The notes below the pieces were generated by a model. It ran no database searches and was not told the origin of the DNA. It saw only the letters and a program-made list of their open reading frames with translations. A DNA stretch of 64,000 bases from Thalassospira lucentensis (GTDB lineage: Bacteria; Pseudomonadota; Alphaproteobacteria; Rhodospirillales; Thalassospiraceae). A program made the position numbers and the translations under genes. Below are positions 25,707-38,342 of this stretch, one piece after another; position 1 is the stretch's first letter, and every line of letters begins with the position of its first letter. The stretch covers positions 124,001 through 188,000 of the forward strand of contig NZ_JAATOV010000001.1 in the NCBI RefSeq assembly GCF_011806425.1, given 5' to 3'.

Positions 25707-26216
25707 ATGCTGTTTCGTGAAAATCTAGTTATCCGTCAGATGGAACATCGTGACATAGAGAACGCTCGCTTGTTACACAATCATCCATCTGTGCTTAAGT
25801 TTTTGACTGATGTGCGCCTTATTAGCGAGGCAGAACAAGAAAACTGGTTTAAAGCCGTATCAACCTCAAAGTCGGCAAGGCGCCTTGTCGTTGAAGAAGA
25901 TACAGGTGCTTTTGTGGGCGTCTTCAGGCTGGATGCGATTGATCTGCAAAACAGAAATGCCATGGTCGGGCTGGACATCACTCCCGAGAAACGTGGATTA
26001 GGCTATGCCACCATTACTTTTGAAGCAATGTTCAACTACTTGTTTGGCGCTATGGGATTGCACCGACTTTCACTTGTAACAATGGTCAACAATACGGTGG
26101 CAGTTAACTTGTATAAAAAGCTCGGCTTTGTTGAAGAAGGCTTACACAAAGAAGCAATTTATAGAGACGGGAGTTTCGTCGATTTACGGGCGTTTGCATT
26201 GGTAAAGCAAAAATGA
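25707..26216 (+). CDS. GNAT acetyltransferase, PseH/RimJ-like
   Basis: 169 residues of GNAT fold: MVGLDITPEKRGLGYATITF gives the acetyl-CoA pyrophosphate loop (RGLGYA), and LVTMVNNTVAVNLYKKLGFVEEG is the RimJ/PseH-like C-terminal part. PseH acetylates the 4-amino group of a nucleotide-activated 4-amino-4,6-dideoxy sugar. A PseB-like dehydratase and DegT aminotransferase 10 kb downstream could supply such a sugar. Overlaps the next gene by 4 bp. Confidence 0.8.
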   Translation: MLFRENLVIRQMEHRDIENARLLHNHPSVLKFLTDVRLISEAEQENWFKAVSTSKSARRLVVEEDTGAFVGVFRLDAIDLQNRNAMVGLDITPEKRGLGYATITFEAMFNYLFGAMGLHRLSLVTMVNNTVAVNLYKKLGFVEEGLHKEAIYRDGSFVDLRAFALVKQK

Positions 26217-26821
26217 CCACTCGAGAAAAATCATGGCTCCATAAAGCCGCCTCTAACGGCACCCCTTTGCCCCTTAAACGCTTACTAGGCGCTACATTTG
26301 CCGGTTTTCAAAAACACCTACTGCGCTTTAACAGGTCCCTATTTTTCAGCAACGATTTACGGATGAGGATCTATAGATGGCTGGGCATCAAAGCCGACAA
26401 ACACAGCATTATCTGGTGCGGGGCACACATAAATCATCCAAAACTTATTCAGATTGGCGAGAATTCAATCGTTGGCCCTCGCACAGTGATGCTTTCACAA
26501 GGCGGAATCGTCATTGGTAAGAATGTAAACATATCAGGTTTCAGCTTTATCATCTCACAGGAACACAACGTTTCAAGCCCCAGCCTTGAAACAACCCTTG
26601 CAACTGTGAAGATAGATGACTTTGCGTGGCTTGCTACAAATGTCACAATTTTACCTGGTGTTCATGTTGGCAAAGGAGCCCTTGTTGCAGCCGGCGCTGT
26701 GGTTACAAAGGACGTTCCTCCCCACACGGTAGTCGGCGGTAATCCAGCACGGAAAATTGGCATGCGCGCAGAGACCTTTTCTTACTCGACCAAAGATGAC
26801 AAGGGCTTGAAATGGCTTTAG
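26213..26821 (+). CDS. Hexapeptide-repeat O-acetyltransferase (WcaF/CysE-like)
   Basis: A 202-residue left-handed beta-helix acyltransferase: repeats HPKLIQIGENSIVGPRTVML and GGIVIGKNVNISG, the catalytic His in SQEHNV, and the typical end KGALVAAGAVVTKDVPPHTV followed by GGNPARKIG. It resembles colanic-acid/maltose-type O-acetyltransferases and probably decorates a cluster-encoded glycan. The stop overlaps the next start by 10 bp. Confidence 0.87.
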   Translation: MTTREKSWLHKAASNGTPLPLKRLLGATFAGFQKHLLRFNRSLFFSNDLRMRIYRWLGIKADKHSIIWCGAHINHPKLIQIGENSIVGPRTVMLSQGGIVIGKNVNISGFSFIISQEHNVSSPSLETTLATVKIDDFAWLATNVTILPGVHVGKGALVAAGAVVTKDVPPHTVVGGNPARKIGMRAETFSYSTKDDKGLKWL

Positions 26822-27793: not shown

Positions 27794-28675
27794 ATGGACC
27801 TATCTACACTATCAAACCATGCGCAAATTCAGGTCGTAATTGACGGCACATTCCAGGAGCTCGGGTTCCTTAACCGTAGGGCAAGAAACTCTCTCACTCC
27901 GGTTTACGATGAACGATATCTAAAAATTGCACAAGATGACAAGAATGTAGCATGCATTCTCACAACCGAGGCGCTTTCACCACTCATCGCAGACTCGCAT
28001 CCTCACGCAGTCTGTTCGAAACCCCTTGAAACATTTTTTGATATTCACAACTTCTTGCTGAGTACAGATTTTTATTCACCCGGCCAGAAAACGACAATCT
28101 CTCCAACTGCGCAGATCCACCCAACGGCATATATCGACGCAACAGATGTAGTCATTGGAGAACGATCAATCGTGGGGCCAAATACCGTTATCCTGTCAGG
28201 GAGCGAAATTGGCGATGATTGCTCAATTGGACCAAATAGCACGATCGGGTATGACGGGTTTGAGATTAGAGAACTGGCCGGCAAGACGTGTTGCATCCGG
28301 CACGGTGGAAAAGTCGTTGTAAACAACAATGTGGATATTCAGGCTAATTGTTCGATTGCGAAGTCCGTGTTCAATGCACCAACAACCATAGGTGAAGACT
28401 GCAAGATCGGACATATGGTATTTATCTCACATGGGGTAGCCCTCGATAGGGGCTGCAAAGTTGGAGCCAATGCTGTAATTTCAGGATCCTGTATAATTGG
28501 CCAAGATTGCTGGATCGGCCCGAATGTAGCAATATCAAATGGCCTAAATATAGACAGCGGCTGCTTCATCTCTATCGGGTCTGTCGTCATAAATGACCTG
28601 CCAATCGGAAGTCATGTCACCGGTAACTTTGCAATTGATCACAAGATCTTCCTTAAAAAAATGGCAATTGGATAG
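27794..28675 (+). CDS. LpxD-like hexapeptide N-acyltransferase
   Basis: The 293-residue protein has a short N-terminal domain (1-95) followed by about 28 hexapeptide-type repeats (TTISPTAQIHPTAYIDATDV, VVIGERSIVGPNTVILSGSE, GEDCKIGHMVFISHGV). The layout, with a non-repeat N-domain and an interrupting loop at YDGFEIRELAGKTC, follows LpxD, which moves a hydroxyacyl group from acyl carrier protein to the 3-amino group of UDP-GlcN. A housekeeping LpxD would sit near lpxA/fabZ, so this copy is probably dedicated to an amino sugar of the cluster. The nearby ACP fusion makes an ACP-dependent reaction attractive. Confidence 0.75.
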   Translation: MDLSTLSNHAQIQVVIDGTFQELGFLNRRARNSLTPVYDERYLKIAQDDKNVACILTTEALSPLIADSHPHAVCSKPLETFFDIHNFLLSTDFYSPGQKTTISPTAQIHPTAYIDATDVVIGERSIVGPNTVILSGSEIGDDCSIGPNSTIGYDGFEIRELAGKTCCIRHGGKVVVNNNVDIQANCSIAKSVFNAPTTIGEDCKIGHMVFISHGVALDRGCKVGANAVISGSCIIGQDCWIGPNVAISNGLNIDSGCFISIGSVVINDLPIGSHVTGNFAIDHKIFLKKMAIG

Positions 28676-29858: not shown

Positions 29859-31304
29859 ATGATCATCAATCTACCGGAACGAACTCGAATCTCACTCATT
29901 ACCGAGGATAAATCTTTATCTTCGCAAGAGCTGTCCAAAGAGGCATTAAATATAGCCACTCAGTTGCAGCGTTTCGGTATTGGGAAAGGCGACCTCGTTG
30001 TGATCATTGCCTCCTACCAACCAAGCTTCTTCTCCACATTGTTCGGCGCCTGGAGAGCAGGCGCGTGCGTCGCTTGCGTAAACTCCTCGATCACACTTAG
30101 CGAAATCAACAACATCTGCAACTTTGTTAAGGCCAAAGCGATTGTTGGTGCGGGTAATCTAGCATTCGAAGAGGCTCCTGCTGCACCGTATATAGATACA
30201 ACGCAAGAATCTGAGTCCTCGCATCCCTTCACAGAGGTTGTGGAACACGGATTGGATGATGATGCCCTGATGCTTTTCACATCAGGCACAACGGGAACAC
30301 CCAAAGGGGTCACACACTCATTCCGATCATTGTTTGCTCGCATCGCGATTAACCGTGAAGAAATCGGCGATGAAGTACTCCGTAACACTTTGAGTCCCTT
30401 GCCCACACATTTTGGACATGGTTTGATTGGGAATTGCCTTACTGCAATTTTTGCCGGCGCTCATTTACGGATTGTGCCAGGTGTGTCTGTCGAAATAGCG
30501 AGCAATTTTGGCAAATTGCTAGACGAACATGAAATTAGCTTCATGAGCTCAGTCCCGGCTATGTGGCGCATAATTACGCGCCTTTCAAGCGGACCGGAGA
30601 AACAATACCTTCGGCGCGTGCATGTTGGGTCCGCCCCTCTTTCATCAGATTTATGGGGGGATATTGCCAAATGGTGCTCACTAGATTCCATCTGGAATGT
30701 GTATGGGATTACAGAGGCTTGTAACTGGATCGGCGGCCGGACCTATATACGCGGTGTGGCAGAAGATGGCCTTATTGGCAAAGCATGGGGCGGAAGTTAT
30801 GCAGTTAAGCTTGACGATGGCAGCATCCAAAACCATGGGAAAGGCGAGCTTCTAGTTCAAACGCCAACCTTAATGCGCGGTTACTTTGATCGACCAGAAA
30901 CGACGGCTGAAGCCCTTCAGAGCGGCTGGTTTCACACAGGAGACATCGCCGTCATTGATGAAATGGGAAATGCGAAACTGATCGGCCGCCAAAAAAACGA
31001 AATCAATAGAGCCGGGTTAAAAATTCATCCTGAAGATATCGATATCTTGCTTGAAAAGCATAAAGATATCAAAGAAGCATGTGCATTCCCAGTGTCAGAT
31101 CCTCTAGCTGGTCAAATTGTCGGCGTCGCGATCGTCCCTGAAGACAGCAGTAACTTTGATCTCGCAACAGTGAAAACCCACTGTCGAGAAAACCTCATCC
31201 CGGAAAAGAACCCGGATAGATGGTTTGTCGTAGATGGCATTCCAAAGACCGATCGTGGGAAAATAAACCGCGAAAATGTCGCAAACTTCTGCCTGAACGA
31301 ATAA
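29859..31304 (+). CDS. AMP-forming acyl-CoA/acyl-ACP ligase (ANL family)
   Basis: A 481-residue adenylating enzyme with the ATP loop LFTSGTTGTPKGVTHS, the A5 motif NVYGITEA, A7 GWFHTGDIAVID, hinge LIGRQKNEINRAGLKIHPED and the catalytic C-terminal Lys in PKTDRGKINR. It activates a carboxylic acid as acyl-AMP and passes it to a thiol, CoA or a carrier protein. The next gene encodes an N-terminal carrier-protein domain, so loading of that ACP is a reasonable inference. The acid substrate cannot be read from sequence. Confidence 0.9.
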   Translation: MIINLPERTRISLITEDKSLSSQELSKEALNIATQLQRFGIGKGDLVVIIASYQPSFFSTLFGAWRAGACVACVNSSITLSEINNICNFVKAKAIVGAGNLAFEEAPAAPYIDTTQESESSHPFTEVVEHGLDDDALMLFTSGTTGTPKGVTHSFRSLFARIAINREEIGDEVLRNTLSPLPTHFGHGLIGNCLTAIFAGAHLRIVPGVSVEIASNFGKLLDEHEISFMSSVPAMWRIITRLSSGPEKQYLRRVHVGSAPLSSDLWGDIAKWCSLDSIWNVYGITEACNWIGGRTYIRGVAEDGLIGKAWGGSYAVKLDDGSIQNHGKGELLVQTPTLMRGYFDRPETTAEALQSGWFHTGDIAVIDEMGNAKLIGRQKNEINRAGLKIHPEDIDILLEKHKDIKEACAFPVSDPLAGQIVGVAIVPEDSSNFDLATVKTHCRENLIPEKNPDRWFVVDGIPKTDRGKINRENVANFCLNE

Positions 31305-31735
31305 TTATCTTATTTATCCCGACGACAAGAATAGTTGTTTCAAAGGTAAATCCTGCAGATTATTTTCTGCAGGATTTACTGTATCGACAGACCATACTAT
31401 CCAAAACTGAAGATCATTGCTTACGATAATCATTGGCTACAGCATCACAACTAAATGAGAACAGTAGCCCCCTAAGTCAGTTATCTGCCATGCCCACCAC
31501 GCTTCTCTAAGTCAATATATCGCGTCCCGAAATGGTAAAGAACGATGAGATATTGACCGCCTTTAGAGGCGGCTTTCGGCTATAAATCCACCTTGATTTA
31601 TGTCGCCCAGATAATTATGTTGCCACCATTCACTACCTTAAAGATTTTGGCTCACAGCCTTTTGTTAATCACTTAAATACAAAAATTAATACACGACAAT
31701 ATCTCGATATTTTAGAATAAAAAGGCGGAACAGGA
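31305..31735. other. Intergenic region in the glycan cluster
   Basis: This 431-bp gap is the longest in the cluster. It contains a long perfect hairpin (31346-31379) and a short one (CCGCC/GGCGG, 31557-31572). The last 100 bp are very AT-rich and may hold a promoter for the ACP-lyase gene. No gene is supported; scrambled similarity to an insertion element is possible but I cannot show it. Confidence 0.5.
31346..31379. terminator. Long perfect stem-loop downstream of the AMP-ligase
   Basis: GTAAATCCTGCAGA (31346-31359) pairs perfectly with TCTGCAGGATTTAC (31366-31379), loop TTATTT. There is no T-tract on either side beyond short runs, so it may end transcription inefficiently, or stabilise the upstream mRNA. 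Confidence 0.5.
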
Positions 31736-32884
31736 ATGAATAATCTTAAAGAAATATCAAAAAATATCGTTGCTGACGCCCTTAATCTTGACCAAAGCGA
31801 AGTCCATGATGATGCCAGCTCGGCCACAATTCGTCAGTGGGATAGCTTGGCCTTAATCAGGATTATTGTGGGCATAGAAAAAATTATTGGCGAAGAACTC
31901 CCTCGGGATATTTCCTCTAAATTATCATCTATAAAAGATGTCGAGCGCACACTAGGTTTATATTTGCAAAAACCCTCCGAGCTGAACTCTGACAGTGAAG
32001 CCGTTGAACTTCATCAAAACACCGGACAGAGTTATGGTGAGCAGCTCCGCTCGAGAATGAAAACCGGAAAAATACTTCCGCTCATTGGGGTATTTGATCA
32101 GTTTTCCGCCTCGCTTGCTGGCAGAGAATTCGAAGGCATATTTTGTTCAGGCTATGGCTTTGCTGCAAGCTACTACGGGCTTCCCGACGAAGGCTACATA
32201 GCATGGCCGGATATCGTCAACTATGTTGAGAGAATGCGGGCCATTTTACCCGAAAACCACATTGTCGTAGATATCGATGAGGGATACGGTGACGCGAACA
32301 TTGCTGCAACTGTCGCAACAAGGCTAGAACGCGTTGGAGCGTCTGCAGTTATACTTGAAGATCAACGACGTCCAAAACAATGCGGTCACCTTGAAGGTAA
32401 AGAGGTTATGCCCGTCGATGACTATATCCGCCGACTAGATGCAGTCCTTACCGCACGCGACGAGATGTTCGTTGTCGCCCGCTCCGACAGCACAAACTTT
32501 GAAGATGGGCTAAAACGCGTCTCAACATATGCAAATGTTGGTGCCGACGCAATCATGCTGGAAGGTTTGTCGTCCGTTGAGGATGTCTCACGCGTACGGG
32601 ATGCTGTGAAATCTGACGCCTATATCGTGGTCAACTTAATTGCTGGCGGGAAAACTCCGCCTGTTTCACTTACTGAATTAAAGTCCAAGGGCGCAGATTT
32701 AGTCATCTATAGTACGCCATGTCTTTTCCATGCACATGAAGCAATCCAAAACGGTTTAAAAGCACTCAAGGCAAACGATGGAAAATTAATCCCTGATCAA
32801 TCAGGAATTGGCTTTATGGACAACATTAATCTCTTTAGAGATAACGTAGTGAAGCTCCTAAACAAGTCGTCCTCTAAAAGGTGA
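31736..32884 (+). CDS. Acyl carrier protein fused to isocitrate lyase/PEP mutase-family enzyme
   Basis: Residues 1-75 are an acyl carrier-like domain (IVADALNLDQSEV, TIRQWDSLALIRIIVGIEKI) with Ser37 as the likely phosphopantetheine site. Residues about 100-375 are an isocitrate lyase/PEP mutase-superfamily barrel: metal-site VDIDEGYGD (Asp179, Asp181), ILEDQRRPKQCGHLEGKEVM with catalytic-type Cys216-Gly-His, and FVVARSD. The PKxCGH loop matches C-C lyases (isocitrate, 2-methylisocitrate) and oxaloacetate-type hydrolases rather than PEP mutases (EDKxxPKxNS). The carrier suggests that the substrate or product is a tethered acyl thioester. The ligase gene lies upstream; the next gene starts directly after its stop. 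Confidence 0.85.
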   Translation: MNNLKEISKNIVADALNLDQSEVHDDASSATIRQWDSLALIRIIVGIEKIIGEELPRDISSKLSSIKDVERTLGLYLQKPSELNSDSEAVELHQNTGQSYGEQLRSRMKTGKILPLIGVFDQFSASLAGREFEGIFCSGYGFAASYYGLPDEGYIAWPDIVNYVERMRAILPENHIVVDIDEGYGDANIAATVATRLERVGASAVILEDQRRPKQCGHLEGKEVMPVDDYIRRLDAVLTARDEMFVVARSDSTNFEDGLKRVSTYANVGADAIMLEGLSSVEDVSRVRDAVKSDAYIVVNLIAGGKTPPVSLTELKSKGADLVIYSTPCLFHAHEAIQNGLKALKANDGKLIPDQSGIGFMDNINLFRDNVVKLLNKSSSKR

Positions 32885-33124
32885 ATGAAGATGAAACCGT
32901 CTTTCTGTAAAATGGCCTTACTGTCCGGTGCAGCACTTTTGACGCTCACCAGCCCGGCGTATGCTTACCTCGACCCTGGAACCGGTTCCATTATCCTGCA
33001 GGCTGTGGTTGGGGCCGTCGCAGCTCTCAGCGTCGGCTTTGCTGCAGCACGCCAACAGATCAAGGCATTCTTCGCTAAATTATTCGGCAAAGACAAAGAC
33101 CCAAACAGCCCAGAAGACGAATAA
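32885..33124 (+). CDS. Small exported protein with YLDPGTGS motif
   Basis: 79 residues: a signal peptide ending near TLTSPAYA (residues 1-27), immediately followed by YLDPGTGSIILQAVVGAVAA, one hydrophobic segment, and a charged tail (AKLFGKDKDPNSPEDE). The YLDPGTGS motif recurs in small proteins encoded near polysaccharide and sulfatase-like genes; I know of no proven function. It begins at the base after the stop of the ACP-lyase gene, with the AAAAGG of that gene's end as ribosome site, so the two are cotranslated. ATG 32891 is an alternative start. Confidence 0.85.
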   Translation: MKMKPSFCKMALLSGAALLTLTSPAYAYLDPGTGSIILQAVVGAVAALSVGFAAARQQIKAFFAKLFGKDKDPNSPEDE

Positions 33125-36142: not shown

Positions 36143-37168
36143 ATGGAACAACTTCAAAACAAAAAGATCCTCATCATTGGTGGCACCGGCTCTCTTGGAA
36201 AAGCGCTCGTTCGCCGGTTATCAAACAACAACCATCTAGTTGTTGTTTCAAGAGATGAATTAAAACAATGGACCATGCGGAACGATTTGACTGCCGGGCA
36301 AAGTGTTTCGTTCGCTGTATGCGATATGCGCGACCGCCAACGCCTTGAAGAAGTTGTCCTTACAGAGCTTCCCGATGTTATCGTTGTGGCGGCCGCTCTT
36401 AAACAAGTTGACACTTGTGAACGTGCTCCAAGTGAAAGCATCAAAACAAACATTACCGGCGTACAAAACCTCGTCGAGGTTGTCGAACGAAATCTTGATC
36501 GCATGTCAAACCTTGAGTCTGTTGTGATGGTTTCAACGGACAAGGCATGTGAACCGACGAATGTATATGGCATGTCAAAAGCGATCGCCGAACGAATTGT
36601 GACCAGTCGAGGCCAGCTACATAAGACTCCACGATTTGTTGCAGTTCGTTATGGCAATGTGCTTGAGTCGCGTGGCAGTATTATTCCGCTTTTCCGATAC
36701 CAAGCAGAACATGCCGCAGCCTTCACTCTTACCCATGACGGCATGACCCGCTTTGTGATGACGCTTGATGAAAGTATCGATCTGATCGTTGCAGCTGCCA
36801 AACATGCAGAAAGTGGAGAGACATGGTTACCCACAATTCGTTCGATGCGTGTAAGGGACCTCGCCGAGATTTTCTCTCGTATGTACAATAAACCAATCAA
36901 GGTTACAGGGATCCGCCCAGGCGAAAAACTTCATGAAATGTTGATCTCTGAAACGGAATCCCTGCGATTGATGTCAAAAAATGGATTCCACGTTTTGAAA
37001 TCAGCAATGGACACGATCCCCGACAACTTCAAAATGATTGAATATTCTAGTGAACACGACTGCCTCTCGCAGAATGATCTTGAGAAATATCTGAATTCTC
37101 TTGGGATCCTTTCCGGAGATATGGACAAATTTGTAGGCACCAAAATCGAAGAAATCCGTCCAAGCTAA
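36143..37168 (+). CDS. PseB/CapE-like nucleotide-sugar 4,6-dehydratase
   Basis: 341-residue extended short-chain dehydrogenase of the polysaccharide CapD/PseB group without membrane domains: ILIIGGTGSLGKALVRRL, AAALKQVDTCERAP, MVSTDKACEPTNVYGMSKAI with the Tyr-x3-Lys, and VRYGNVLESRGSIIP. PseB and CapE form a 4-keto-6-deoxy UDP-HexNAc from UDP-GlcNAc. The DegT aminotransferase 19 bp downstream would aminate C4. FlaA1/PglF relatives are the alternative. Confidence 0.88.
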   Translation: MEQLQNKKILIIGGTGSLGKALVRRLSNNNHLVVVSRDELKQWTMRNDLTAGQSVSFAVCDMRDRQRLEEVVLTELPDVIVVAAALKQVDTCERAPSESIKTNITGVQNLVEVVERNLDRMSNLESVVMVSTDKACEPTNVYGMSKAIAERIVTSRGQLHKTPRFVAVRYGNVLESRGSIIPLFRYQAEHAAAFTLTHDGMTRFVMTLDESIDLIVAAAKHAESGETWLPTIRSMRVRDLAEIFSRMYNKPIKVTGIRPGEKLHEMLISETESLRLMSKNGFHVLKSAMDTIPDNFKMIEYSSEHDCLSQNDLEKYLNSLGILSGDMDKFVGTKIEEIRPS

Positions 37169-37187: not shown

Positions 37188-38342
37188 ATGTCTAGTTCAA
37201 TCTCCTATCCCTTATTCAAAGTTTACCTTGAAAAAGAAACCGCACTTTCAGGTTTGGCTGATGTTTTTGACAGCGGCTTCATCAATGAAGGTATCCAAGT
37301 TAATGAATTGAAAGAGCAGCTTAAGGGAGTATTCAAGGATGATAACATTATCCTTATGAATAGCTGCACTTCGGCACTTACCGTGGCGATGAAACTCGCT
37401 GGCTTAAAGCCGGGGAAAAACATTGTGACATCTCCGATGACTTGTATCGCCTCCAATACACCAATCATTAATTTAGGAGGTGAAATCAAGTGGGCTGACG
37501 TTTCCCCGGAAACAGGAATGGTAACAGCTGAAACAATATCCAAAGAGATTGATGAAAACACCGTCGCGGTTCTGTATGTGAACTGGGGTGGCGTTCCTGC
37601 CAATCTGACCGACATCCAATCCGTTGCCAAACAGCATGGCGTGAAAGTCATTCAAGATGCCGCTCACGCGTTCATGGCAGAATTTGATGGCAAACCAATA
37701 AACCATTTTGCCGACTTCACTTGCTATAGCTTCCAAGCAATCAAACATTTCACTTGTGGCGACGGAGGGGCATTAGTCTGCCAAAGTGATCGCGATTATC
37801 ACGCCGCACAGAAACTTAAATGGTTTGGGTATGACCGTGAGAAGGCCAAAGACGAAAAAGGGAACTGGAAAGCACAGCAAGCTGACGCAGACATCCAAGA
37901 AGGTGATGTTGGTTTTAAATTTAACATGAACAACGTGTCGGCAGCCATAGGGTTAGCCCAATTGCCCAAAATGCCTGAAATTGTTGCGCAACATCGAGAC
38001 AATGCAGCGACTTATGATAAAGCATTTGCACAGTCATCTAAAATCCGACCAATCAACCGCGTTCAGGGTAGCAATCCGTCATTCTGGGTATATACGTGTA
38101 TTTTGGACAACAGTGTTGACCGAGATAAGTTCATAGACAAACTCGCATCTGAAGGCATTCACTCAGGACAAGTGCATGTCCCAAATGACGACTATAGTTG
38201 CTTTAACAAGTACCGAAAGCCACTTCCGGGGGTTCGTAAATTCTCGGAACATCAAATCTCGATCCCATGTGGTTGGTGGATAACCCGTCAGGATGCCGAG
38301 AAGATAGCACACACAGTTCTTACTCTTCTTGGCGAGAAGTAA
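37188..38342 (+). CDS. DegT/DnrJ/EryC1/StrS-family sugar aminotransferase
   Basis: A 384-residue PLP enzyme: LMNSCTSALTVAMKLAG, VIQDAAHAFMAEFDG and the PLP Lys in CYSFQAIKHFTCGDGGALV, with FKFNMNNVSAAIGLAQL. It would transfer an amino group to the keto-sugar made by the preceding dehydratase, as PseC or PglE do. No pseI, pseG or pseF is in the window, so pseudaminic acid itself is not supported; a 4-amino-4,6-dideoxy hexose is. Confidence 0.9.
   Translation: MSSSISYPLFKVYLEKETALSGLADVFDSGFINEGIQVNELKEQLKGVFKDDNIILMNSCTSALTVAMKLAGLKPGKNIVTSPMTCIASNTPIINLGGEIKWADVSPETGMVTAETISKEIDENTVAVLYVNWGGVPANLTDIQSVAKQHGVKVIQDAAHAFMAEFDGKPINHFADFTCYSFQAIKHFTCGDGGALVCQSDRDYHAAQKLKWFGYDREKAKDEKGNWKAQQADADIQEGDVGFKFNMNNVSAAIGLAQLPKMPEIVAQHRDNAATYDKAFAQSSKIRPINRVQGSNPSFWVYTCILDNSVDRDKFIDKLASEGIHSGQVHVPNDDYSCFNKYRKPLPGVRKFSEHQISIPCGWWITRQDAEKIAHTVLTLLGEK

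Follow-up and report, generated by a model that had tools for sequence, protein, structure and literature searches.

An acyl carrier protein domain fused to an isocitrate lyase/PEP mutase-superfamily barrel in a surface-polysaccharide gene cluster of Thalassospira lucentensis

We found a gene in Thalassospira lucentensis in which an acyl carrier protein (ACP) domain is joined to a barrel of the isocitrate lyase (ICL)/PEP mutase superfamily. This finding adds a carrier-domain fusion to the superfamily, for which we know of no previous case, and connects a deep barrel subfamily, as yet unnamed, with a ligase and a carrier in what is probably the synthesis of a sugar coat. No report of an ACP-isocitrate lyase fusion was found in the open-access literature (weak evidence of absence), and both the fusion and the barrel family are apparently undescribed. 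Our best explanation of the whole is a ligase-ACP-barrel module, fused in this species, in which an acid, most likely oxalate, would be made, loaded onto the carrier and put on an amino sugar; we place it just short of an even chance.

The fused gene

The gene lies on the forward strand at 31736-32884 of the window, by which we mean the whole stretch of 64,000 nucleotides analysed (contig NZ_JAATOV010000001.1, positions 124,001 to 188,000). It is a single open reading frame of 382 amino acids with an ATG start and an upstream Shine-Dalgarno-like sequence, AGGAA. The frame is continuous across the whole linker, many stops occur in both alternative frames, and the first ATG from which a separate second domain could start is Met108, with none earlier between the domains. 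As the frame is open throughout and no inter-domain ATG precedes Met108, the two domains read as one gene. The initial annotation, made from the sequence alone, had proposed this fusion and named a frameshift between the domains as the finding that would speak against it; profiles, the AlphaFold2 (AF2) fold and the single frame bear the proposal out.

A second fused copy was not found in the genomes, contigs and plasmids searched, so that the fused form is known from one genome only. This would be expected if the fusion were an assembly error or an accident and the domains worked as separate proteins, as in a related genome, G379, described below. We consider such an origin very improbable, given the continuous frame over the linker, the closed alternative frames and the lack of a separate barrel start. 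The gene module would stand regardless.

The carrier domain and the linker

The carrier domain (residues 1-78; 31736-31969, forward strand) was recognised from profile matches, its AF2 fold and its occurrence as a separate gene elsewhere. Its matches to the NCBIfam acyl carrier protein models have E values of about 5e-5 and scores of 19-23 bits, under the cutoffs of 66-106, and it matches acyl carrier proteins in the PDB at E 1e-3. In two further genomes, G379 and G450, the same domain is encoded by its own gene of 77 amino acids beside the barrel orthologue; thus, the weak match is not due to chance. The separate carrier orthologue of G450 scores above the PF00550 cutoff (22.1 against 20.8).

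The initial annotation had suggested checking the N-terminus for a four-helix carrier fold. AF2 modelled residues 1-81 (pLDDT 82) as a carrier fold, with helices at residues 2-16, 37-51, 57-60 and 66-77. In a Foldseek search, the best matches of this model were acyl carrier proteins (E about 2e-3, probability 1.00, TM about 0.7-0.8), the modest E value being due to the small size of the domain. In the full-length model, the carrier part has low confidence because the alignment used for it contained no carrier sequences; a joint alignment misplaced the carriers, and barrels and carriers were handled as two separate models. Ser37 in the motif WDSL (codon 31844-31846, forward strand), the predicted phosphopantetheine site, is invariant in two carrier alignments and is located where helix 2 begins in the AF2 model. 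We class residues 1-78 as carrier-like on their predicted fold and regard them as a divergent carrier. One AcpS above the cutoff is present in the window genome. In G379, an AcpS gene (L024, 5043-5447) is located within the polysaccharide cluster, and it is the sole AcpS match in that assembly, which is 89% complete.

The linker (about residues 79-99; 31970-32032, forward strand) had been described as acidic and probably flexible. In the full-length model, pLDDT is below 50 over residues 66-93, and residues 78-99 include four acidic residues and one basic residue. From the low pLDDT and this composition, the linker is predicted to be flexible and only mildly acidic.

The barrel

Residues 100-382 (32033-32884, forward strand) form the barrel, as judged from profiles, alignments and the AF2 model. 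They match PF13714 with an E value of 5.6e-33 (114.9 bits against a cutoff of 31.5), the PrpB model TIGR02317 with 8.7e-45 (153.1 bits against 354.4), and the PEP mutase model TIGR02320 with 83.8 bits against 319.55. The catalytic loop reads EDQRRPKQCGH, the KxCGH lyase type, just as the initial annotation stated. All the lyase catalytic residues, including the metal-binding Asp and Glu residues and the Arg, are kept in the alignment; on the alignments and the model, the metal and catalytic residues are D121, D179, D181, E208, K214, C216 (codon 32381-32383, forward strand), H218, R249 and N300.

The AF2 pLDDT is mostly 85-97 across residues 100-300, and the model matches structures of the superfamily with Z scores of about 28-35. 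Oxaloacetate acetylhydrolase (3m0j; Z 34.6, rmsd 2.3 over 279 residues) is among the closest structural matches, tied with PrpB and dimethylmalate lyase, and the best sequence match in the PDB is the petal death protein. By these comparisons, the barrel belongs to the lyase branch of the superfamily. A role as a PEP mutase in phosphonate synthesis was excluded by the loop, which is not EDKxxPKxNS, and by the model scores. A PrpB role was excluded by the score; a PrpB-like paralogue is encoded elsewhere in the genome, at C8:252944.

The barrel subfamily

Close relatives of the barrel share 43-60% identity with it and score above 250 bits, whereas other members of the superfamily score about 105-130 bits. 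We found such relatives in Aestuariispira insulae, in G379 and G450 (small alphaproteobacterial genomes of a single family), in G889 (a genome of the same order as the window), and on large actinomycete plasmids (Kitasatospora, Streptomyces and Embleya). Within the genus of the window, all 28 genomes listed lack the subfamily barrel, and searches of phages, of viral contigs and of a sample of Pseudomonadota yielded hardly any further members. A search of genome contigs with the single protein gave one close and one distant relative. In a tree of 28 sequences, which contained no oxaloacetate hydrolase sequence, the nine subfamily members form one clade on a long stem with support of 100/100, and the window barrel groups with those of G379 and G450 (99/96). 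The subfamily thus appears, from these sequence comparisons, to be deep, separate and rare, and it is unnamed.

Several members are standalone barrels. No carrier gene was found within 10-14 kb of those in Aestuariispira and the actinomycetes, which are up to 60% identical to the window barrel, and no homologue of the window ligase was found in the Aestuariispira genome at E<=1e-30. In G889 (L041, 10918-16086), the standalone barrel has as neighbours the genes of an LpxL-like acyltransferase and an oxalate-CoA ligase, together with a flippase-like gene; these surroundings do not make up a full polysaccharide cluster. On the Kitasatospora plasmid, a NAT_N-domain (PF18082) acyltransferase gene (L018, 13068-13874) is located directly upstream of the barrel gene. 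The standalone barrels of the Embleya plasmids have an IucA/IucC siderophore synthetase gene (L020) or an NRPS gene (L021) no more than about 14 kb away. Near such genes, the actinomycete members may use the acid differently.

The gene module and its cluster

The fused gene is part of a surface-polysaccharide cluster at 21236-46663 (forward strand), delimited by its GC content and by comparison with G379, which shares it nearly gene for gene: nearly every gene has a reciprocal best hit there, including many glycosyltransferase-like genes. At 43.5%, the GC content of the cluster is below the 54% of its two flanks, and therefore the cluster was likely acquired, with the fused unit, by horizontal transfer.

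Upstream of the fused gene is an AMP-forming acyl ligase gene (29859-31304, forward strand; PF00501, E 6e-55), a conserved neighbour in G379 and G450 that is predicted to load the carrier. The cluster also includes, all on the forward strand, an LpxD-like hexapeptide acyltransferase (27794-28675), a candidate acyl-ACP-dependent sugar acyltransferase; a polysaccharide dehydratase/epimerase (36143-37168; PF02719) of a putative amino-sugar pathway; and a DegT-type sugar aminotransferase (37188-38342), the best model for which is PseC, below the cutoff. The ligase, the barrel, the LpxD-like enzyme, the dehydratase and the aminotransferase are reciprocal best hits, the LpxD-like enzyme in the clusters of both G379 and G450. 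Profiles and cluster comparison further identified a PseH-like GNAT acetyltransferase (25707-26216, forward strand; below the cutoff) and a WcaF-like hexapeptide acetyltransferase (26213-26821, forward strand). No other acid-forming enzyme was recognised within the cluster.

In G379 and G450, the gene order is AMP-ligase, separate 77-amino-acid ACP and barrel, with overlaps of 11 nt. As this unit is conserved with separate genes in a cluster of nearly the same gene content, the fusion in the window is best read, on gene order, as the joining of two genes whose products were already partners.

Some features of the clusters were noted in passing. Between the ligase and the fused gene in the window, 431 nt (31305-31735) contain no clear gene and are possibly the remnant of an insertion; G379 has an 11-nt overlap. 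Downstream of the fused gene (32885-33124) is a small secreted-looking protein with the motif YLDPGTGS, and a relative of it is located elsewhere in the G379 cluster (L025, 15894-16082). The end of the G379 cluster (L025, 12331-15867) contains a phosphonate-like module, whose parts were named by eye: a PEP mutase-cytidylyltransferase-like fusion and two genes resembling those of phosphonopyruvate decarboxylase and alcohol dehydrogenase. In G450, a formyltransferase-like gene, also named by eye, is located just before the ligase (L028, 4557-5318); it is missing from the window cluster.

A proposed route from acid to sugar

In the sequence of steps that we infer, together with the acid, the sugar and the acyl position, the barrel would cleave a free 2-oxo or 2-hydroxy diacid and release a small acid; the likeliest substrate is oxaloacetate and the likeliest product oxalate. 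A phosphopantetheinyl transferase would arm Ser37, and the ligase (29859-31304) would adenylate the acid and load it onto the carrier. The LpxD-like acyltransferase (27794-28675) would then transfer the acyl group to the amino sugar produced by the dehydratase and the aminotransferase of the cluster, and the acylated sugar would enter the surface polysaccharide. The general logic, in which the barrel supplies an acid, the ligase loads it and the acyltransferase uses the acyl group, seems to us about as probable as its opposite, whichever acid is made.

The initial annotation had instead pointed to aldol or retro-aldol chemistry on a thioester, with the barrel acting on a carrier-bound acyl group. 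The covalent fusion and the gene order are consistent with this, and the linker would allow the carrier to reach the barrel. However, the closely related standalone barrels have no carrier nearby, one of these genomes, that of Aestuariispira, also shows no homologue of the window ligase at E<=1e-30, and the residues of the free-acid pocket are kept; to our knowledge, the known members of the superfamily act on free acids. For the first three of these reasons, the barrel probably makes a free acid, and we regard thioester chemistry as unlikely. The carrier can be explained without the barrel acting on it because the AMP-ligase and the LpxD-like acyltransferase are its conserved partners.

The candidate acid

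The identity of the acid was approached from Ser326 of the barrel (codon 32711-32713, forward strand), which alignments and a position argument place at the marker-serine column of oxaloacetate hydrolases. In the profile alignment, the oxaloacetate hydrolase 3lye and the petal death protein have Ser in this column, dimethylmalate lyase and 4iqd have Pro, and 3eoo has Cys. In a further alignment, the ten paralogues taken from related genomes all have Pro, Cys or Ala there, and each subfamily member seen, that of G889 included, has Ser. The column was placed by combining residue offsets given in two papers with a structural alignment, and its position is accurate to within a few residues. Residues Val39-Gly331 of the Sclerotinia enzyme were modelled on 3lye, and 3lye 69-356 aligned to residues 93-379 of the window protein, which puts number 281 at the Ser326 column; the two other candidate serines are about 20 residues off. 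The barrel also resembles oxaloacetate hydrolase in having Glu-Gly, at residues 276-277. As the subfamily is deep and separate, the shared serine may be convergent.

The ligases also bear on the acid. The best PDB match of the window ligase is an oxalate-CoA ligase (E 4e-50), and it scores 174 bits to plant AAE3. At the oxalate contacts of AAE3, which we take to be His214, Ser289 and His319, it has Phe, Ser and Asn; its PDB match is thus a weak argument for oxalate, as two of the three positions differ. A plain oxalate-CoA ligase was excluded by the score and these two residues. A search of plasmid records for the window ligase gave no match at E 1e-60. In G889, the gene 50 nt from the barrel gene has oxalate-CoA ligases as all four of its top PDB matches (E 2e-125 to 6e-75) and scores 423 bits to AAE3; the two genes run convergently rather than as one operon, and the other genes of the cluster are missing there.

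Based on Ser326, the oxalate-CoA ligase neighbour in G889 and the PDB matches of the window ligase, oxalate is the lead candidate, though a tentative one. It is rather doubtful, but to our mind worth stating, that oxalyl-ACP derived from oxaloacetate serves to decorate an amino sugar of the surface polysaccharide with an oxalyl (oxamic acid) group. An equally doubtful possibility is that the same module carries another acid, the barrel being an alkylmalate-type lyase, like the petal death protein or dimethylmalate lyase, and giving pyruvate, glyoxylate or another small acid. The petal death protein, the top PDB sequence match, has the same serine and shows both hydrolase and alkylmalate lyase activity; two presumed pocket positions of the ligase differ from AAE3; and the NRPS and siderophore surroundings of the actinomycete members have no obvious use for oxalate. 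Against this, the marker serine is present in all members seen and the G889 neighbour is an oxalate-CoA ligase.

We know of no N-oxalyl sugar in bacteria, and no report of oxalyl-ACP was found in the open-access literature (weak evidence of absence). A plant activity O-oxalylates glucosamine, not at N (PMC6099474). If oxalate is the product, bacteria would have a route by way of an oxalyl-carrier and a sugar substituent that is strongly acidic, which were not found in the literature searched; if the oxalyl-ACP reading is true, both the carrier-bound acyl group and the sugar substituent would be new, and made by an undescribed ICL/PEP mutase subfamily.

Comparison with known systems

Among the enzymes that resemble the barrel, PrpB shares its fold, KxCGH loop and metal ligands; however, the window barrel has Ser for Pro or Cys at the specificity column and scores far under the family cutoff. 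Oxaloacetate acetylhydrolase (3lye, 3m0j) and the petal death protein (1zlp) share the fold, the catalytic residues and the marker Ser, but they are only about 26-29% identical to the window barrel, which falls in a separate subfamily, and these known enzymes have no carrier domain.

With regard to sugar acylation, the rfbKLMNO genes of Vibrio cholerae O1 encode an ACP, an AMP-ligase and an acyltransferase for the N-acyl side chain of perosamine; unlike in the window, the acid comes from other enzymes and there is no ICL/PEP mutase barrel. In Flavobacterium psychrophilum (wfpD/wfpG), an O-polysaccharide-specific ACP is predicted to feed an N-acyltransferase acting on a 4-amino sugar; in contrast to the window, the acyl group comes from ketoacyl synthases and a reductase, and we know of no ligase-barrel pair there (PMC6519341).

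The arrangement of domains has a counterpart in siderophore synthesis. EntB has its carrier at the C-terminus. Its lyase domain makes the acid, which is activated by EntE and then passed to the carrier domain of the same protein (PMC11308372); we take this, like the Flavobacterium ACP, as a precedent for the proposed module. As in the window, a lyase-type acid-maker is fused to a carrier and the AMP-ligase is separate, but the enzyme fold is unrelated and the product is a siderophore. An engineered route to dencichine combines an oxaloacetate hydrolase, an oxalyl-CoA synthetase and an acyltransferase (PMC9485241). That route is designed, uses CoA instead of a carrier protein and has an amino acid as the acceptor, whereas its order of steps to an N-oxalyl product is the one proposed here.
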